Of a stretch of 29,380 nucleotides of DNA, positions 7,129-29,380 are shown one piece after another. The notes under the pieces were generated by a model. It did not search any database, had not been told where the DNA came from, and saw only the letters and a program-made list of their open reading frames with translations. Position 1 is the first letter of the stretch; each line of letters opens with the position of its first letter. The DNA comes from a virus, in IMG/VR virus record IMGVR_UViG_3300042369_000038, positions 1 to 29,380 of that record; one strand, 5' to 3'. A program made the translations under genes and the position numbers.

Positions 7129-7683
7129 TTAATTTTCTGTTATTTTGCCTAAATATGAAAAATTTAAATAAGAAGCAATTTCAAAATGCACTCTAATTAT
7201 GTCATAATGAACTTTAGATAATTGTTTGTTTAATAACATTGTATTTTTTGAATTAATAATATCACTTTCATTTAAATTTTCAATTAAATTTTGCAATGAA
7301 TTAATAGCTAAAATAGATTGTGAAGTTTTTTTTTGCATTTCTATTAATTTATTTGAATCTAAATTAAAACTTAAATTTAAACAAGAAGGTAAAGATTTAT
7401 TATTAATCGGTTTCATATATTCAATTAATATTTTTTCCATAATTAATCTATGTTCTTTGTTTTCAATTAAAATAACTCTTGCATAACTCCAATCTTTATT
7501 ATCGTTTTTGCAATGCATCTGTAGTCTATTGTTTATGTTTTTTGTATGACCAATATAAATTAAATCATCATTTTTATCATATAACATATAAATACCACTA
7601 TCTTGAATTACAGGAATTATATCATAATAATAATAAGACATATTCCATTCACCTTGTCTTTTAATCTTTTTTAATTTTATCAT
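7129..7683 (-). CDS. GIY-YIG homing-type endonuclease, AT-rich insert
   Basis: 184 aa with a GIY-YIG nuclease domain: DSGIYMLYD (GIY 30-32), LIYIGHT (YIG 43-45), NNRLQMH (R53) and the glutamate E83, all catalytic positions. The rest is Asn/Leu/Lys-rich with no recognised DNA-binding module. Base composition is far more AT-rich than the neighbours: sampled 60-base stretches inside hold about 18-20% G+C, against about one third in the ERF gene. This suggests recent arrival as a mobile gene. The ATG at 7683 overlaps the primase-helicase TGA (ATGA). An ATG at 7641 (MSYYYY) is an alternative start. Confidence 0.85.
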   Translation of the reverse strand: MIKLKKIKRQGEWNMSYYYYDIIPVIQDSGIYMLYDKNDDLIYIGHTKNINNRLQMHCKNDNKDWSYARVILIENKEHRLIMEKILIEYMKPINNKSLPSCLNLSFNLDSNKLIEMQKKTSQSILAINSLQNLIENLNESDIINSKNTMLLNKQLSKVHYDIIRVHFEIASYLNFSYLGKITEN

Positions 7684-10019
7684 ATATTCATAGCTTTAAT
7701 TGTTAATTCATCCCATATATCTATCTCTTTTACCTCCTGTACAAATGACAATTTAGTACTGCCTCCATTCCTATTGGTAGAGCAGATATATCCTTTGTAT
7801 TCGCAGTACTTCTTAAAGTTAATTGTGATGCTGTTCTGTGTTATGTAGTTCTTTTTATCAGGGAATGCATTGCAAAATGAATCGTATAACTGTTCTTTCA
7901 CTGAGTAGTAAGTATCCTCTTTTAGATCCTCAAAGAAATAGTACATTTCACTGCTAATCTCATCTAATATCTTTCTAAAGTTTAGATTTACAGTAGGCAT
8001 CTCTATAAGTCCTACATTAAGATATATCTGTATACATTCTTGACAATAATTGTCAAAGGCTGCCCATTGGTCATCATCCCAATCAACGAACAGCTCATGA
8101 CCAAATAGATCTACAGGAGTGAACTTATCATTAAATGTCTTAGCCATCTCTACCTCATACTTTCTAGCATTGAAAGATGCACCATTGCCTGAGATAGTAT
8201 AGTTGGTAGTGATAATAATCTTAGGGCTGTTAGTTACATCTAGTTTAATAGAATCCTTGCCTTTGTATTCAATAGTAATACCCTCAGTAATAACACTGAA
8301 TAAGCTCTCAAAGTTGAACTTCTTTTTAACATCATCAAATACTAATATTTGGCAGTCAGTAGATACATTCTGATAGGGGAATTTATTTTGAAAGTCAAAC
8401 AGCTTACCATCTAAGCTCTGCACTTTCTTAAGATGTCCCATTGCATTCCAAAACAATCCCTTTCCACTTCTCCCATTAGGCACATCAGAGATAGCCTCAT
8501 CATTAAAGATAATAGCTTTGTTATTACTCCTATCCTTATAGCTGTGCAGGAGGTATCCGATTACAGTCTGAAATGCTTTGTACTTACTTTTATCTTTACC
8601 TGCTATGTTCCAAATGAAAGTTCTAAATTCTGAACTATGGTGATCTGTTTTCTTAAAGTCTCTATTGATGACCTGGTCTCTCCAAATAGATAGATCCATA
8701 TCAGCATAAGATAGTACCTCTTTTTTATCTTTAGATACCTTTACTATGCAATTAGTATAGAATAGATATGCACTATCTTTGTCATCTTTCAATAGACTTA
8801 CATTCTTACTAGTCAATATCCCTAGAAATTCTCTCTTAAAGAACTTAAGATTGCCACTCATCAGGTTATAAACTCCCTCAGGCTTATCATTAGAGGTTAT
8901 GTAATCTAATACAAAATCTTTTATATCTTTCTCATATACCTCATTTAAAAATATACCCTCTTTTTTAATCATTTGAAATGTGCCATTTTTCTCAGGGGAA
9001 TGCTTAAAGAAATCATTGTTATCTAGGAATGTTTTGAACTTAAAGTTGTTAAGATTGTAAGCTCCATTCTGAGTAGTGGACCAAAAGTCATCATCTACCA
9101 TCTTAAACTTCTTTTTCAATGCCTCCTTAGCAGCATTCCAATCTCCATTATGCTTGACTAAAGTATAGATATTAAATGGTGAATAAGATTGCTTAGATTC
9201 AAATGGCTTTATAGCTCCTCCATCTTCACTAAATATATAGAACATATTATTTTGAAAGCCAAAAGTAGCAGAGAATCCATCTTTTATATCTTTGTTAGGT
9301 CTAGTCCAATACTCTGAGCCATCCTTTCTCTTATTGCAGAACTGCCAACCTATCCCCTTAAGCAGCTCCTTAGCCTCTTCTCCATTCTCAAGGTTATATT
9401 TACCATCAGGAGTAGTATCTTTCCAGGTCTCTGCCCATTTTCTATCAGATGTATCTTTGTGAGGTAGACTAATAGTGTGATGCTGATTGTAAGATGTAAT
9501 TAAATCAAAGACATTATTAATATCATCATCAAAATAGCTCAGCTTTATGTACTCCTCACCACCTATATGACTATATCCACTAGATGGATAGCAGGCACAG
9601 TACTGTCCATTGCCTCTCATCTCTACCATTGTAGCTCCTGTAGGATATTTAGCAAATACTCTACCATTAAACTTCTCTTTTGATCTAAAGTAAACATGAT
9701 AGCCACCTCCTGCTGTAGTGTAACAGGATAGCATCCCATCTTTAATAAGCATCTTAATAGATGGCACATTAATAAAGTCATCAAATGTATCTTTAATAGG
9801 CTCACCATTATGGCAGTCAAAGTCAATGCAGTAAAATTCACTAACTAATCCACAGGCTATCCCTATTTTTTCAGCTTTTAAGAATCTACTATCTACATCT
9901 GTAATAGTTTCATATAAAAAATTATGACCTGCCTCAAGCATTGGAGCTTTGCTGTTCCAAAGTGGTAGAGGATTCAATCCCTCTGCTATTAATTCATGTG
10001 CTACATCTATTAGATTCAT
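7680..10019 (-). CDS. Primase-polymerase / SF3-like helicase, bifunctional replication protein
   Basis: 779 aa, the main replication enzyme. The N-terminal prim-pol domain (about 1-190) has the catalytic DxD in YCIDFDCH (D66, D68) and the GGGYHVYF motif (H108). The C-terminal helicase has Walker A NGRSGKG (515-521), Walker B QILVFDD (557-563) and a sensor TTNY (604-607), as in D5/DUF5906-type SF3 helicases. Walker A ends in Gly instead of Ser/Thr after the lysine. It presumably primes and unwinds at the phage origin, which is probably the iteron region just upstream. It is the first gene after the promoter at 10124-10156 and the structured leader. Confidence 0.9.
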   Translation of the reverse strand: MNLIDVAHELIAEGLNPLPLWNSKAPMLEAGHNFLYETITDVDSRFLKAEKIGIACGLVSEFYCIDFDCHNGEPIKDTFDDFINVPSIKMLIKDGMLSCYTTAGGGYHVYFRSKEKFNGRVFAKYPTGATMVEMRGNGQYCACYPSSGYSHIGGEEYIKLSYFDDDINNVFDLITSYNQHHTISLPHKDTSDRKWAETWKDTTPDGKYNLENGEEAKELLKGIGWQFCNKRKDGSEYWTRPNKDIKDGFSATFGFQNNMFYIFSEDGGAIKPFESKQSYSPFNIYTLVKHNGDWNAAKEALKKKFKMVDDDFWSTTQNGAYNLNNFKFKTFLDNNDFFKHSPEKNGTFQMIKKEGIFLNEVYEKDIKDFVLDYITSNDKPEGVYNLMSGNLKFFKREFLGILTSKNVSLLKDDKDSAYLFYTNCIVKVSKDKKEVLSYADMDLSIWRDQVINRDFKKTDHHSSEFRTFIWNIAGKDKSKYKAFQTVIGYLLHSYKDRSNNKAIIFNDEAISDVPNGRSGKGLFWNAMGHLKKVQSLDGKLFDFQNKFPYQNVSTDCQILVFDDVKKKFNFESLFSVITEGITIEYKGKDSIKLDVTNSPKIIITTNYTISGNGASFNARKYEVEMAKTFNDKFTPVDLFGHELFVDWDDDQWAAFDNYCQECIQIYLNVGLIEMPTVNLNFRKILDEISSEMYYFFEDLKEDTYYSVKEQLYDSFCNAFPDKKNYITQNSITINFKKYCEYKGYICSTNRNGGSTKLSFVQEVKEIDIWDELTIKAMNI

Positions 10020-10117
10020 AATTTATATAAAAAAGAGAGTCCCCCTAAGCGAACAGCCAAGTTGATAGGGGGATTTATACTCTCTAAGATTAAAGTCTTT
10101 GTCATTGGCTGTTCTAA
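10020..10117 (-). ncRNA. Structured leader RNA with crossing stems (pseudoknot or attenuator)
   Basis: In the minus-strand transcript GAACAGCCAA (10114-10105) can pair perfectly with UUGGCUGUUC (10060-10051). That second strand lies in the loop of another hairpin, AGAGAGU/ACUCUCU (10085-10079 with 10040-10034) stacked near CCCCCU/AGGGGG (10072-10067 with 10046-10041). The stems interleave, so the RNA can form a pseudoknot or switch between two folds. The second hairpin is followed by UUUUU and lies 14 nt before the primase-helicase AUG. It could therefore act as a transcription terminator or block initiation. No known riboswitch class is recognised. Confidence 0.6.
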
Positions 10118-10123
10118 TTTTTA

Positions 10124-10156
10124 CAAATGTAATAATAATTATTAATACTTTACAAA
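10124..10156 (-). promoter_or_regulatory. Host-type promoter of the replication operon
   Basis: On the minus strand TTTG (10156-10153) is followed after 21 nt by TACATTTG (10131-10124). This fits the Bacteroidetes housekeeping consensus TTTG/TTG, about 17-23 nt, TAnnTTTG. The start would fall near 10118, just before the 5' strand of the leader pseudoknot. Confidence 0.75.
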
Positions 10157-10157
10157 G

Positions 10158-10407
10158 TGTGCAATCTTTTTTTATCAACATACAACTTTGCACAAACTTT
10201 GCACACCCAAAAGTTAGCAGTACCAAGGCTTTGTGCAAAGTTGGTCTTTTTTTTTACTTTTTTTTTTCATCCTGGTCTTATAGTATATATAGGGTAGGGG
10301 CTTTTTCTCAAAACTTTGCACAAATCAATCTAAATTATTGATAATCAATTCTATTTTATGTGCAATCTTTTGTGCAAAGTTGTAAGGACCATTTTAACAT
10401 TGCACAA
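10158..10407. repeat. Iteron array (AACTTTGCACAA), candidate replication origin
   Basis: The 12-mer AACTTTGCACAA occurs at 10184-10195 and 10312-10323, and as 11/12 at 10195-10206. Its complement TTGTGCAAAGTT occurs at 10231-10242 and 10370-10381. Partial copies with GTGCAAT or TTGCACAA lie at about 10158, 10359 and 10400. The first two overlap in tandem at 11-bp spacing, one helical turn. Long T runs (about 10246-10267) and an AT-rich stretch (10324-10358) lie within the array. The position between a DnaA-domain-IV-like gene and the primase-helicase gene fits an origin or operator. No open frame here looks real. Confidence 0.65.
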
Positions 10408-10426
10408 AAAAAGCCCCGAAGGGCTT
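10403..10426 (-). terminator. Rho-independent terminator of the early operon
   Basis: On the minus strand AAGCCC-TTCG-GGGCTT is followed by a run of T (TTTTT) and TGTGC. The hairpin begins in the stop codon of the DnaA-like gene and has a stable UUCG-type loop. It separates the early operon from the origin region. Confidence 0.85.
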
Positions 10427-10832
10427 AAATTATTTCAGCTAGTTCTTTAGCTGTCATATATTCTTTAAATTTATTGACCTTATCATACTCCCAAGGCATC
10501 TGAATCCTCACATTTATGTAATTGAACTTCTCTAATGCTGAGACTTTGTACTTATCCTCATAATCTAGATCATCTGCAGCTTGCACTAATGGCTCTATCT
10601 CATGGAGATATACTTTATCATGCATCCTAGACCATCTCCTGTGCATTCTGATACCATGTATAACAGTAGCATGATGTCTATTCATAAGCCTTCCTATTTC
10701 ACTAAGTGATAGCTTACATTTGTTTAGCCTGTACATTACATAGTATCTCTTATAGACATAGGCTCTATTCCTAGAGTTGGTAGCTAGTTTATACTTTATA
10801 ATTTGTTCTTTTAAAAATTTTAGTTCTGTCAT
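10425..10832 (-). CDS. DnaA domain-IV-like origin-binding protein (135 aa)
   Basis: Residues about 20-70 match the DNA-binding domain IV of DnaA: RAYVYKRYYVMYRLNK, LSLSEIGRLMNRHHATVIHG. The HHATVIHGI block (53-61) corresponds to the DnaA signature (DHTTVLHA). There is no AAA+ ATPase domain, so this is a stand-alone binding domain with a helical C-terminal extension. It lies next to the iteron array and could be its binding protein, helping load the primase-helicase. The iterons do not resemble the classical DnaA box TTATCCACA. The ATG overlaps the GIY-YIG stop (ATGA). Confidence 0.75.
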   Translation of the reverse strand: MTELKFLKEQIIKYKLATNSRNRAYVYKRYYVMYRLNKCKLSLSEIGRLMNRHHATVIHGIRMHRRWSRMHDKVYLHEIEPLVQAADDLDYEDKYKVSALEKFNYINVRIQMPWEYDKVNKFKEYMTAKELAEII

Positions 10833-11287
10833 TTTTTTGTATGTTTTTTAGTTCCTGCTATATTATATTTTGGCTTATATTTTTGTATAAAATTATTTTC
10901 CATTTCAAGAGCTTTATTACGATCATGCTCTTCAAAAAATTTTACTGTATCCCATTCTTTAATATTTTCTCTTGTATGTTCCCTTAATCTTGAATAAATA
11001 CAATTAGATACTCCAACATAAACTAAATTTTCATTATTAAATAATAAATAACATCCTTGATATAAATCAGGTTGAATTTCTTTAGCTTTTTTAAAATTTA
11101 TTCTACTAATTTTTTTAACACTATAATCTTCTTCTTCTCTTTCCCATTCGTATGAATATTTATTGGGAGGATTAATTAATAAATCTACTGCCCAATCATA
11201 TTCGGTATGAGGCTCTTGAAAATTTGAAACTAAATAACGATTTTCCCAAAGCGTGTATAGTATTATGTGTGCTTGTTTTTTAGTCAT
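10829..11287 (-). CDS. GIY-YIG endonuclease with N-terminal extension
   Basis: 152 aa. The nuclease domain occupies the C-terminal half: YQGCYLLFNN (GCY 78-80 in place of GIY), LVYVGVSN (YVG 90-92), SRLREHT (R100) and ALEMENNFI (E130), then YKPKYNIAG. The first 70 residues (HTEYDWAVDLLINPPNKYSY) are an unrecognised extension that may bind DNA. The gene is AT-richer than its neighbours. It is coupled by ATGA overlaps on both sides, so any past insertion has been fitted neatly into the operon. It is only distantly similar to the GIY-YIG protein at 7129. Confidence 0.8.
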   Translation of the reverse strand: MTKKQAHIILYTLWENRYLVSNFQEPHTEYDWAVDLLINPPNKYSYEWEREEEDYSVKKISRINFKKAKEIQPDLYQGCYLLFNNENLVYVGVSNCIYSRLREHTRENIKEWDTVKFFEEHDRNKALEMENNFIQKYKPKYNIAGTKKHTKK

Positions 11288-13288: not shown

Positions 13289-13334
13289 GTTACTTTGGAA
13301 TTACATGATAAGTTACTTTGGAATTACATGATAA
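13289..13334. repeat. Perfect 23-bp tandem repeat, two copies
   Basis: GTTACTTTGGAATTACATGA followed by TAA occurs twice head to tail (13289-13311 and 13312-13334), directly followed by TCGGAATTATG, a partial echo. A spacing of about two helical turns would put two bound proteins on the same face, so an operator is likely. Confidence 0.8.
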
Positions 13335-28995: not shown

Positions 28996-29380
28996 TTAAA
29001 TTGTATGTATTCTTACTGCTCGGACTGATAAGTTACTGCTCTTAACAGATGTGAATTGAGAACCATCACCAGTAAAAAAAGCATTTACACTATTAGCTGC
29101 TGCTTCTGTAGAACTCCAATATATAGAATTAAGAAACCCATTTGTTGAGCCTAAAACTCTATTTACAATAGCAGCTGAATTATAACACATATTTAACTCC
29201 CAAATTGCAGGTAAATACCAATCTGAAAAACCACCATCTGCAAAAAGTCTTGCTCTTCCTGCAGCATAAGCTGTAGTCGCCGGGAGAAGTGTTTGTGCTA
29301 TAATTGCATTAGTATTTGTAAGACCATCTGAATAACTTCGAGCTGTAGCACCTATTGCAATAGTTTGAAATGCTGGTATT
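28996..29380 (-). CDS. Tail fibre C-terminal domain, DUF1566/Lcl-like (same gene as 1-1383)
   Basis: C-terminal part of the fibre gene; bases 29299-29380 duplicate 1-82. The last roughly 85 residues carry the hallmarks of the DUF1566/Lcl, C-type-lectin-like fold: DGGFSDWYLPAIWEL, then YWSSTE, and a closing VRAVRI strand. Such domains often cap phage and bacterial adhesins. Some are the variable part of diversity-generating retroelements, but no reverse transcriptase or template repeat is present here. The shorter frame starting with Met at 29190 is only the end of this protein and not a separate gene. Domain assignment is by motif recognition. Confidence 0.75.
   Translation of the reverse strand, partial: IPAFQTIAIGATARSYSDGLTNTNAIIAQTLLPATTAYAAGRARLFADGGFSDWYLPAIWELNMCYNSAAIVNRVLGSTNGFLNSIYWSSTEAAANSVNAFFTGDGSQFTSVKSSNLSVRAVRIHTI
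29299..29380. repeat. Terminal direct repeat, right copy (circular contig end)
   Basis: Exact copy of bases 1-82. It marks closure of the circle. A true short terminal redundancy of the packaged DNA is possible but less likely, because it lies inside a coding region. Confidence 0.95.

Follow-up and report, generated by a model that had tools for sequence, protein, structure and literature searches.

The prim-pol/helicase gene of this virus is preceded by a leader that, on comparative sequence evidence, is near certain to be a real RNA: the 5' tail of the predicted transcript pairs with a hairpin loop beside the start codon, forming a pseudoknot whose pairings are retained among relatives of divergent sequence. 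It looks like a so far undescribed RNA element that controls viral replication, and we see about an even chance that it acts in cis as a switch between RNA 5' end and hairpin loop, gating the translation start of a phage replication operon. The window (the whole stretch of DNA analysed) is a virus record of 29,380 bases with genes for phage structural proteins and, besides, a replication block that also includes genes for ERF and DUF3127 proteins. Promoters in the window are of the TAnnTTTG type, so a bacterium of the phylum Bacteroidota is the probable host. The relevant features are as follows.

10153–10156 (minus strand): −33-like TTTG element, recognized by sequence, separated from the −7 box by 21 nt
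10124–10131 (minus strand): −7 box TACATTTG (TAnnTTTG), Bacteroidota sigma-A type
10105–10114 (minus strand): 5' strand of P3, the 5' tail, GAACAGCCAA; covaries with the loop across relatives
10080–10085 (minus strand): 5' strand of P1, AGAGAG; compensated to GGAAG/CUUCC in L462/L565
10074–10079 (minus strand): one-sided 6 nt bulge, UAUAAA, between P1 and P2; invariant in alignments A1 and A3
10066–10073 (minus strand): 5' strand of P2, UCCCCCUA; pairs with 10047–10040 over 8 bp
10048–10065 (minus strand): apical loop of 18 nt, UCAACUUGGCUGUUCGCU, holding the complement of the tail
10051–10060 (minus strand): 3' strand of P3, UUGGCUGUUC, within the loop; pairs with the 5' tail
10040–10047 (minus strand): 3' strand of P2 (8 bp), UAGGGGGA
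10034–10039 (minus strand): 3' strand of P1 (6 bp), CUCUCU
10029–10034 (minus strand): terminator-like U6 run that follows the hairpin; missing from types B, C, E and F
10016–10105 (minus strand): predicted upstream ORF of 29 codons, its AUG overlapping the end of the P3 strand
7680–10019 (minus strand): prim-pol/helicase gene, downstream of the leader; product of 779 aa, PF09250, phrog_19930 and phrog_28855
10425–10832: gene whose product is a stand-alone DnaA domain IV protein (helix-turn-helix, PF08299)

P3 consists of 10 perfect pairs (10114–10105 with 10060–10051); the tail–loop duplex of type A amounts to −17.4 kcal/mol, and a linker of 19 nt leads from the tail to P1. Judged by this pattern of pairing the leader is a true pseudoknot, because P3 crosses P2/P1. 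The coordinates given in an earlier note on this DNA are all correct, and every helix named there is present. The same note had placed the start of the RNA just before the first P3 strand. Because the F. psychrophilum −7 box has been mapped at −12 to −5 (PMC9723704), we predict the leader +1 near 10119, with P3 beginning at about +6; the promoter predicted here lies upstream of 10114, in agreement with that placement and not with a start downstream of 10105. At the other end of the leader, the UGA stop codon of the upstream ORF overlaps the prim-pol AUG at 10019 (AUGA).

The search for covariation that the earlier note had proposed was strongly positive, with compensatory changes in P1, P2 and P3. 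In alignment A1, which comprises the GAGAG class, P1 and P2 are 96% paired and 6 of 13 pairs have changed on both sides, compared with 40–56% pairing in slid controls. When L462, L565 and L569 are added to this class (alignment A3), P1/P2 are 100% paired, again with two-sided changes: P1 passes from GAGAG/CUCUC to GGAAG/CUUCC while the UAUAAA bulge is unchanged. Covariance model R1 detects L462 and L565, both outside its training set, at 64 and 58 bits respectively. In the D class (alignment A2), all of P3 is paired (100%), two-sided changes affect 6 of its 8 pairs, and an additional 5' helix, P0, is 95.7% paired; slid controls reach 29–60%. The register of P3 shifts between types of the GAGAG class; columnwise counting was therefore dropped for this helix and a swap permutation used instead. 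Across 12 unrelated types, the mean tail–loop pairing score was 23.7 for a leader's own tail and loop and 11.8 for swapped ones, and none of 20000 permutations reached the observed pairing total. Relatives thus keep the pairs while their sequences diverge, rather than keeping the sequence and losing the pairs, and by this measure P1, P2 and P3 are under selection as base pairs. G-U pairs (24 of 299) fit only the sense strand of the gene, and an RNA is therefore favoured over a DNA element.

The proposal that the helices are unlikely to have arisen by chance stands for the combination of promoter, tail, hairpin and ATG, but not for nested folding alone. Nested folding of the leader is weak (z = −1.64, with 14 of 200 shuffles as good), and plain minimum free energy folding was dropped as support. 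The combination was sought with a finder that uses no sequence identity, asking for a TAnnTTTG promoter, a 5' tail whose complement lies in a hairpin loop and an ATG within 35 nt, at thresholds of our own choosing. At a score of at least 44 it returned 28 real and 1 shuffled hit in 4.6 Mb, and 39 real and 0 shuffled hits in 1.2 Mb of relatives; the window leader scores 46. The combination is beyond chance. Together, the covariation and this promoter-anchored topology bear out a pseudoknotted leader RNA before the primase gene.

Most of the near-identical phages among the prim-pol relatives carry the same leader as the window. L012 and L015, however, have a different leader (type B) before the same prim-pol gene, and L027, an 80% identical prim-pol relative, has a third (type C). 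Between types A, B and C the tail, P2 and loop sequences are almost wholly different, yet all pairings are retained; among type B variants, P3 pairs change on both sides, as from U-G in L012 to A-U in L112. The type B leader is also found in L066 and L151 before an unrelated primase of the BT4734/VirE type (Pfam PF08800). Because type B precedes two unrelated primases, the leader is, on this distribution, exchanged as a module between genes. The GAGAG–UAUAAA frame likewise occurs before a 190-aa gene in L124 and a gene for a primosomal-like protein (phrog_6451) in L229.

The finder recovered the known GAGAG leaders and revealed others of this topology in L035, L036, L038, L039 and L052. For the wider search, 80 of 596 candidate IMG/VR stretches encoding a relative were taken, and after relatives had been fetched there were 57 distinct leaders at a score of at least 42, compared with 1 in shuffles. 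The merged set holds 59 distinct leaders, all in uncultured-phage (metagenomic) contigs; at least one, L150, which precedes a 17-aa ORF, is probably a chance match. Exact-pattern scans of viral contigs gave a mixture of true and chance matches, which was filtered by pairing. The leaders stand mostly at the head of replication operons, before genes for prim-pol, BT4734/VirE primases and primosomal proteins, and whole contigs usually have one leader heading the replication genes, some having a second, for example before HNH-like genes. P3 begins 4–13 nt after TTTG and the AUG lies 4–29 nt after P2 in the 59 leaders, both ranges being bounded by the finder limits; within those ranges the position between promoter and start codon is constant.

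In the D class a small hairpin at the 5' end, P0, carries the tail in its loop, and on our reading the same is true of I, J and K (P0 stems GGUUC/GAACC, GAGUU/AACUC, UUGG/CCAA and UAG/CUA); the contact in these leaders would therefore be a loop–loop kiss. The complement in the main loop is closed by a short stem, P4, read by eye in the D class and, by the same reading, in I, J and K (UGUG/CACA, UGCG/CGCA, CGAG/CUCG, ACUG/CAGU, GCA/UGC and GCG/CGC). The D class also has a TGAA/GGATT internal loop, and most types have a near-constant A-rich AxATTATT immediately 5' to the hairpin.

Outside these contigs, covariance models R1 and R2, run with strict filters and without a positive control, gave 0 matches in 395 Bacteroidia genomes and 0 in 396 genomes of the order of G002. 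R2 had 0 matches in seven isolate-phage records, the promoter-anchored finder gave no leader in FPSV-S1 or RAP44, near-identical DNA was not found in phage isolates, and exact-pattern scans of genome contigs gave no convincing leader. Among the phage contigs, L189 (IMGVR_UViG_3300009169_000034) has two leaders on its minus strand, at 343 and 1090, with strong terminator-like U-runs, preceding a 60-aa gene and a match to a phage transcriptional-regulator family (phrog_129). Leaders also stand directly before genes that, by eye, resemble NUMOD4/HNH homing endonucleases in L521, L501 (4708) and G428 (L620 6888), and some endonuclease-linked leaders carry a copy of the start region. Such leaders may show how the leaders or the endonucleases move.

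Three kinds of output recur downstream of the common core. The first is a copy of the tail just upstream of the AUG, found in L124, L229, L039, L461, L501, L521, L462 and L565 and in the L545/L557/L558 group. In the latter, the tail, loop and start read GGGCAG/CUGCCC/GGGCAG-AUG in L545 and GAGCAG/CUGCUC/GAGCAG-AUG in L558, so that a one-base difference is mirrored in all three places, a triple covariation. Start copies of at least 6 nt occur in 13 of the 59 leaders, L150 included, compared with 3.4% of mismatched pairs, and copies of at least 8 nt in 6 of 59 compared with 0.2%. The loop is complementary to the start region in about 12 of the 59 (E, F, G, H and about eight more), and in E and F the loop–start duplexes (−14.8 and −16.4 kcal/mol) rival those formed with the tail (−16.0 and −19.8 kcal/mol). 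The second output is an upstream AUG; in types A, B and F it falls at −1 to +1 nt relative to the tail (P3). In most A and B leaders it opens a frame of 28–29 codons whose UGA lies over the main AUG, and the distance between the two AUGs mostly keeps frame (83 and 86 nt for type B; 97, 97 and 100 nt for type F). The upstream ORF is likely to be functional in types A and B; nevertheless it is absent in C and E, its frame is broken in L194 and its stop is shifted in L001, and given these cases it may be incidental. As a universal explanation it was rejected, since it is missing in most types. The third output is a U-run: five or more U residues directly follow the hairpin in 34 of the 59 leaders, compared with 1.5% of control windows, the U fraction dropping from 0.66 over the first 8 nt to 0.37 over the following 8.

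On the sequence evidence, the promoter places the tail at the RNA 5' end and the tail pairs with the loop of the hairpin beside the start codon; we suggest that this loop is a built-in antisense to a translation start region. In the window, the tail–loop helix would cover the start of the 29-codon upstream ORF, and in the closed pseudoknot both that ORF and the coupled primase start would be poorly used. Opening by a ribosome, a protein, an RNA or a changed 5' end would allow ribosomes to enter and melt the hairpin, and then to re-initiate on prim-pol. In relatives with a start copy, tail and start would compete for one loop, giving two exclusive states, and in relatives with a U-run the hairpin could also terminate transcription. 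Flavobacterial initiation relies on start-region structure and A-rich context without Shine-Dalgarno pairing (PMC6847099), and would therefore suit such a switch. Gene gating, which the earlier note had offered as one possibility, is supported as the likely role. A narrower proposal, which we hold tentatively and at somewhat less than an even chance, is that the mRNA 5' end is a decoy, a copy of the gene's own start, and that one loop masks either, so that two exclusive states would set the output of the replication gene; that this design covers the widespread class, its core varied by terminators in some members and upstream ORFs in others, is just as tentative. Against a start switch, the window has no copy of the tail at the prim-pol AUG.

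The pseudoknot might be closed or opened by a factor of phage or host origin, whether a protein or a small ligand, as in autoregulation or a riboswitch, and this can be combined with the start switch as its trigger. The unpaired UAUAAA bulge of the GAGAG class and the TGAA/GGATT internal loop of the D class, each conserved amid variable helices, are what a bound factor would lead one to expect. No ligand or partner is indicated, however, the genes downstream are varied replication genes rather than one metabolic pathway, and there is no Rfam riboswitch match; we regard this as unlikely, if a serious candidate.

The 34 U-run leaders are pointing to attenuation instead of a start switch. Here the hairpin and U-run would form an intrinsic terminator, whose readthrough is tuned by the tail–loop helix. 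The shape required, a hairpin followed directly by a U-run, is that of the window, with its U6, as well as of these 34, but it is not found in types B, C, E and F, including L012, which has the same prim-pol, and L027. Moreover, the tail–loop helix does not exclude the hairpin, and is therefore not a classic antiterminator. The switch between termination and antitermination that had been considered for the window consequently fits it poorly, since hairpin and tail–loop helix are compatible and neither type B nor type C, its closest relatives, has a U-run. In the wider family there may be many relatives to which attenuation applies; as the explanation of the leader we find it rather unlikely.

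Pairing of the first bases could simply protect the 5' end and stabilize the mRNA. P0 or P3 does begin a few nucleotides from the predicted +1 in all types, but the constant AUG-adjacent position, the start-region copies and the U-runs are left unexplained, and we think this improbable. More improbable still is control of copy number by an antisense RNA in the manner of ColIb-P9 or pT181, with a counter-transcript binding the leader. The setting is the same (a replication gene, a pseudoknot, a leader ORF and neighbouring iterons) and the variable loops recall incompatibility determinants; the complement, however, is already present in cis, and in a weak, consensus-only test antisense promoters were not enriched near 57 leaders, TAnnTTTG antisense promoters occurring within 250 nt of 9 of them, where the background is 0.24 per 250 nt. 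Nor were trans targets of the loop evident in five phage contigs. That the element is an origin hairpin or operator acting as DNA is extremely improbable: iterons and the gene for the DnaA domain IV protein adjoin it, but it is anchored to a promoter, its G-U wobbles fit the sense strand only and its sequences are too variable for a protein operator.

Among known systems, the phage leader would work most like the repZ pseudoknot of ColIb-P9 (IncI-alpha) and its IncB/IncL-M relatives, by analogy, but is not to be filed there. In ColIb-P9 a leader ORF is coupled to the replication gene repZ, and an upstream loop pairs just before repZ. The account in PMC8383071, citing Asano and Mizobuchi 1998, has an RNA pseudoknot decide translation of the replication gene. 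An RNA pseudoknot before a replication gene is common to both, and the ColIb-P9 leader ORF may have a counterpart in the 29-codon ORF, which overlaps the start and is confined to types A and B; here, however, it is the mRNA 5' end that pairs with a downstream hairpin loop, and in place of the antisense RNA there is no enrichment of antisense promoters by consensus. In the pT181 repC leader a hairpin with a U-run precedes the replication gene and a counter-transcript drives termination. This attenuator is attributed to Novick 1989 in the citing text of PMC10724649. The hairpin and U-run before a replication gene are common to both, but the phage leader has its partner strand in cis, and not every leader has the U-run. 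Riboswitches of the preQ1 and SAM-II type are start-masking pseudoknots, as the leader would be where its loop can pair with the start region; the differences are that two alternative pseudoknots share one loop here, that the competitor is a start-region copy at the 5' end and that no ligand is known.

The view that no described riboswitch or leader class applies was borne out: no Rfam 15 family reached its gathering threshold in the window and 20 related loci, and our literature search found no description of the class, an absence that is not proof of novelty. The top Rfam score on the gene's strand was Chlorobi-RRM (RF01697), at 17.1 bits against a threshold of 45 bits, aligning CAGCCAAUG/UUGGCUG and UCUCUUU; being below threshold, requiring a 42-nt insert and having no match in L229, it was set aside as chance. 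Control of replication by an RNA pseudoknot is a plasmid classic, and here it would extend to a large class, defined by structure, before unrelated replication genes of many uncultured phages. This class is a covariation-backed target for asking how the timing of replication is set by these phages where the host lacks Shine-Dalgarno control. The decoy-start design, if true, would be a new way of building a two-state translation switch.

The surroundings of the leader have features of their own. Directly upstream of its promoter, at 10181–10384, lie at least five TGTGCAAAG(TT) iterons on both strands, adjoining the DnaA domain IV protein gene; iterons and gene together probably make up a phage origin that has a DnaA-like binder of its own. 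Two GIY-YIG genes (7129–7683 and 10829–11287) stand on either side of the replication module. Elsewhere in the window there is a perfect 23-bp tandem duplication, GTTACTTTGGAATTACATGATAA, at 13289–13334, and the open frames at its two ends (1–1383 and 28996–29379) overlap in protein sequence, which suggests a genome that is circularly permuted or near-complete.
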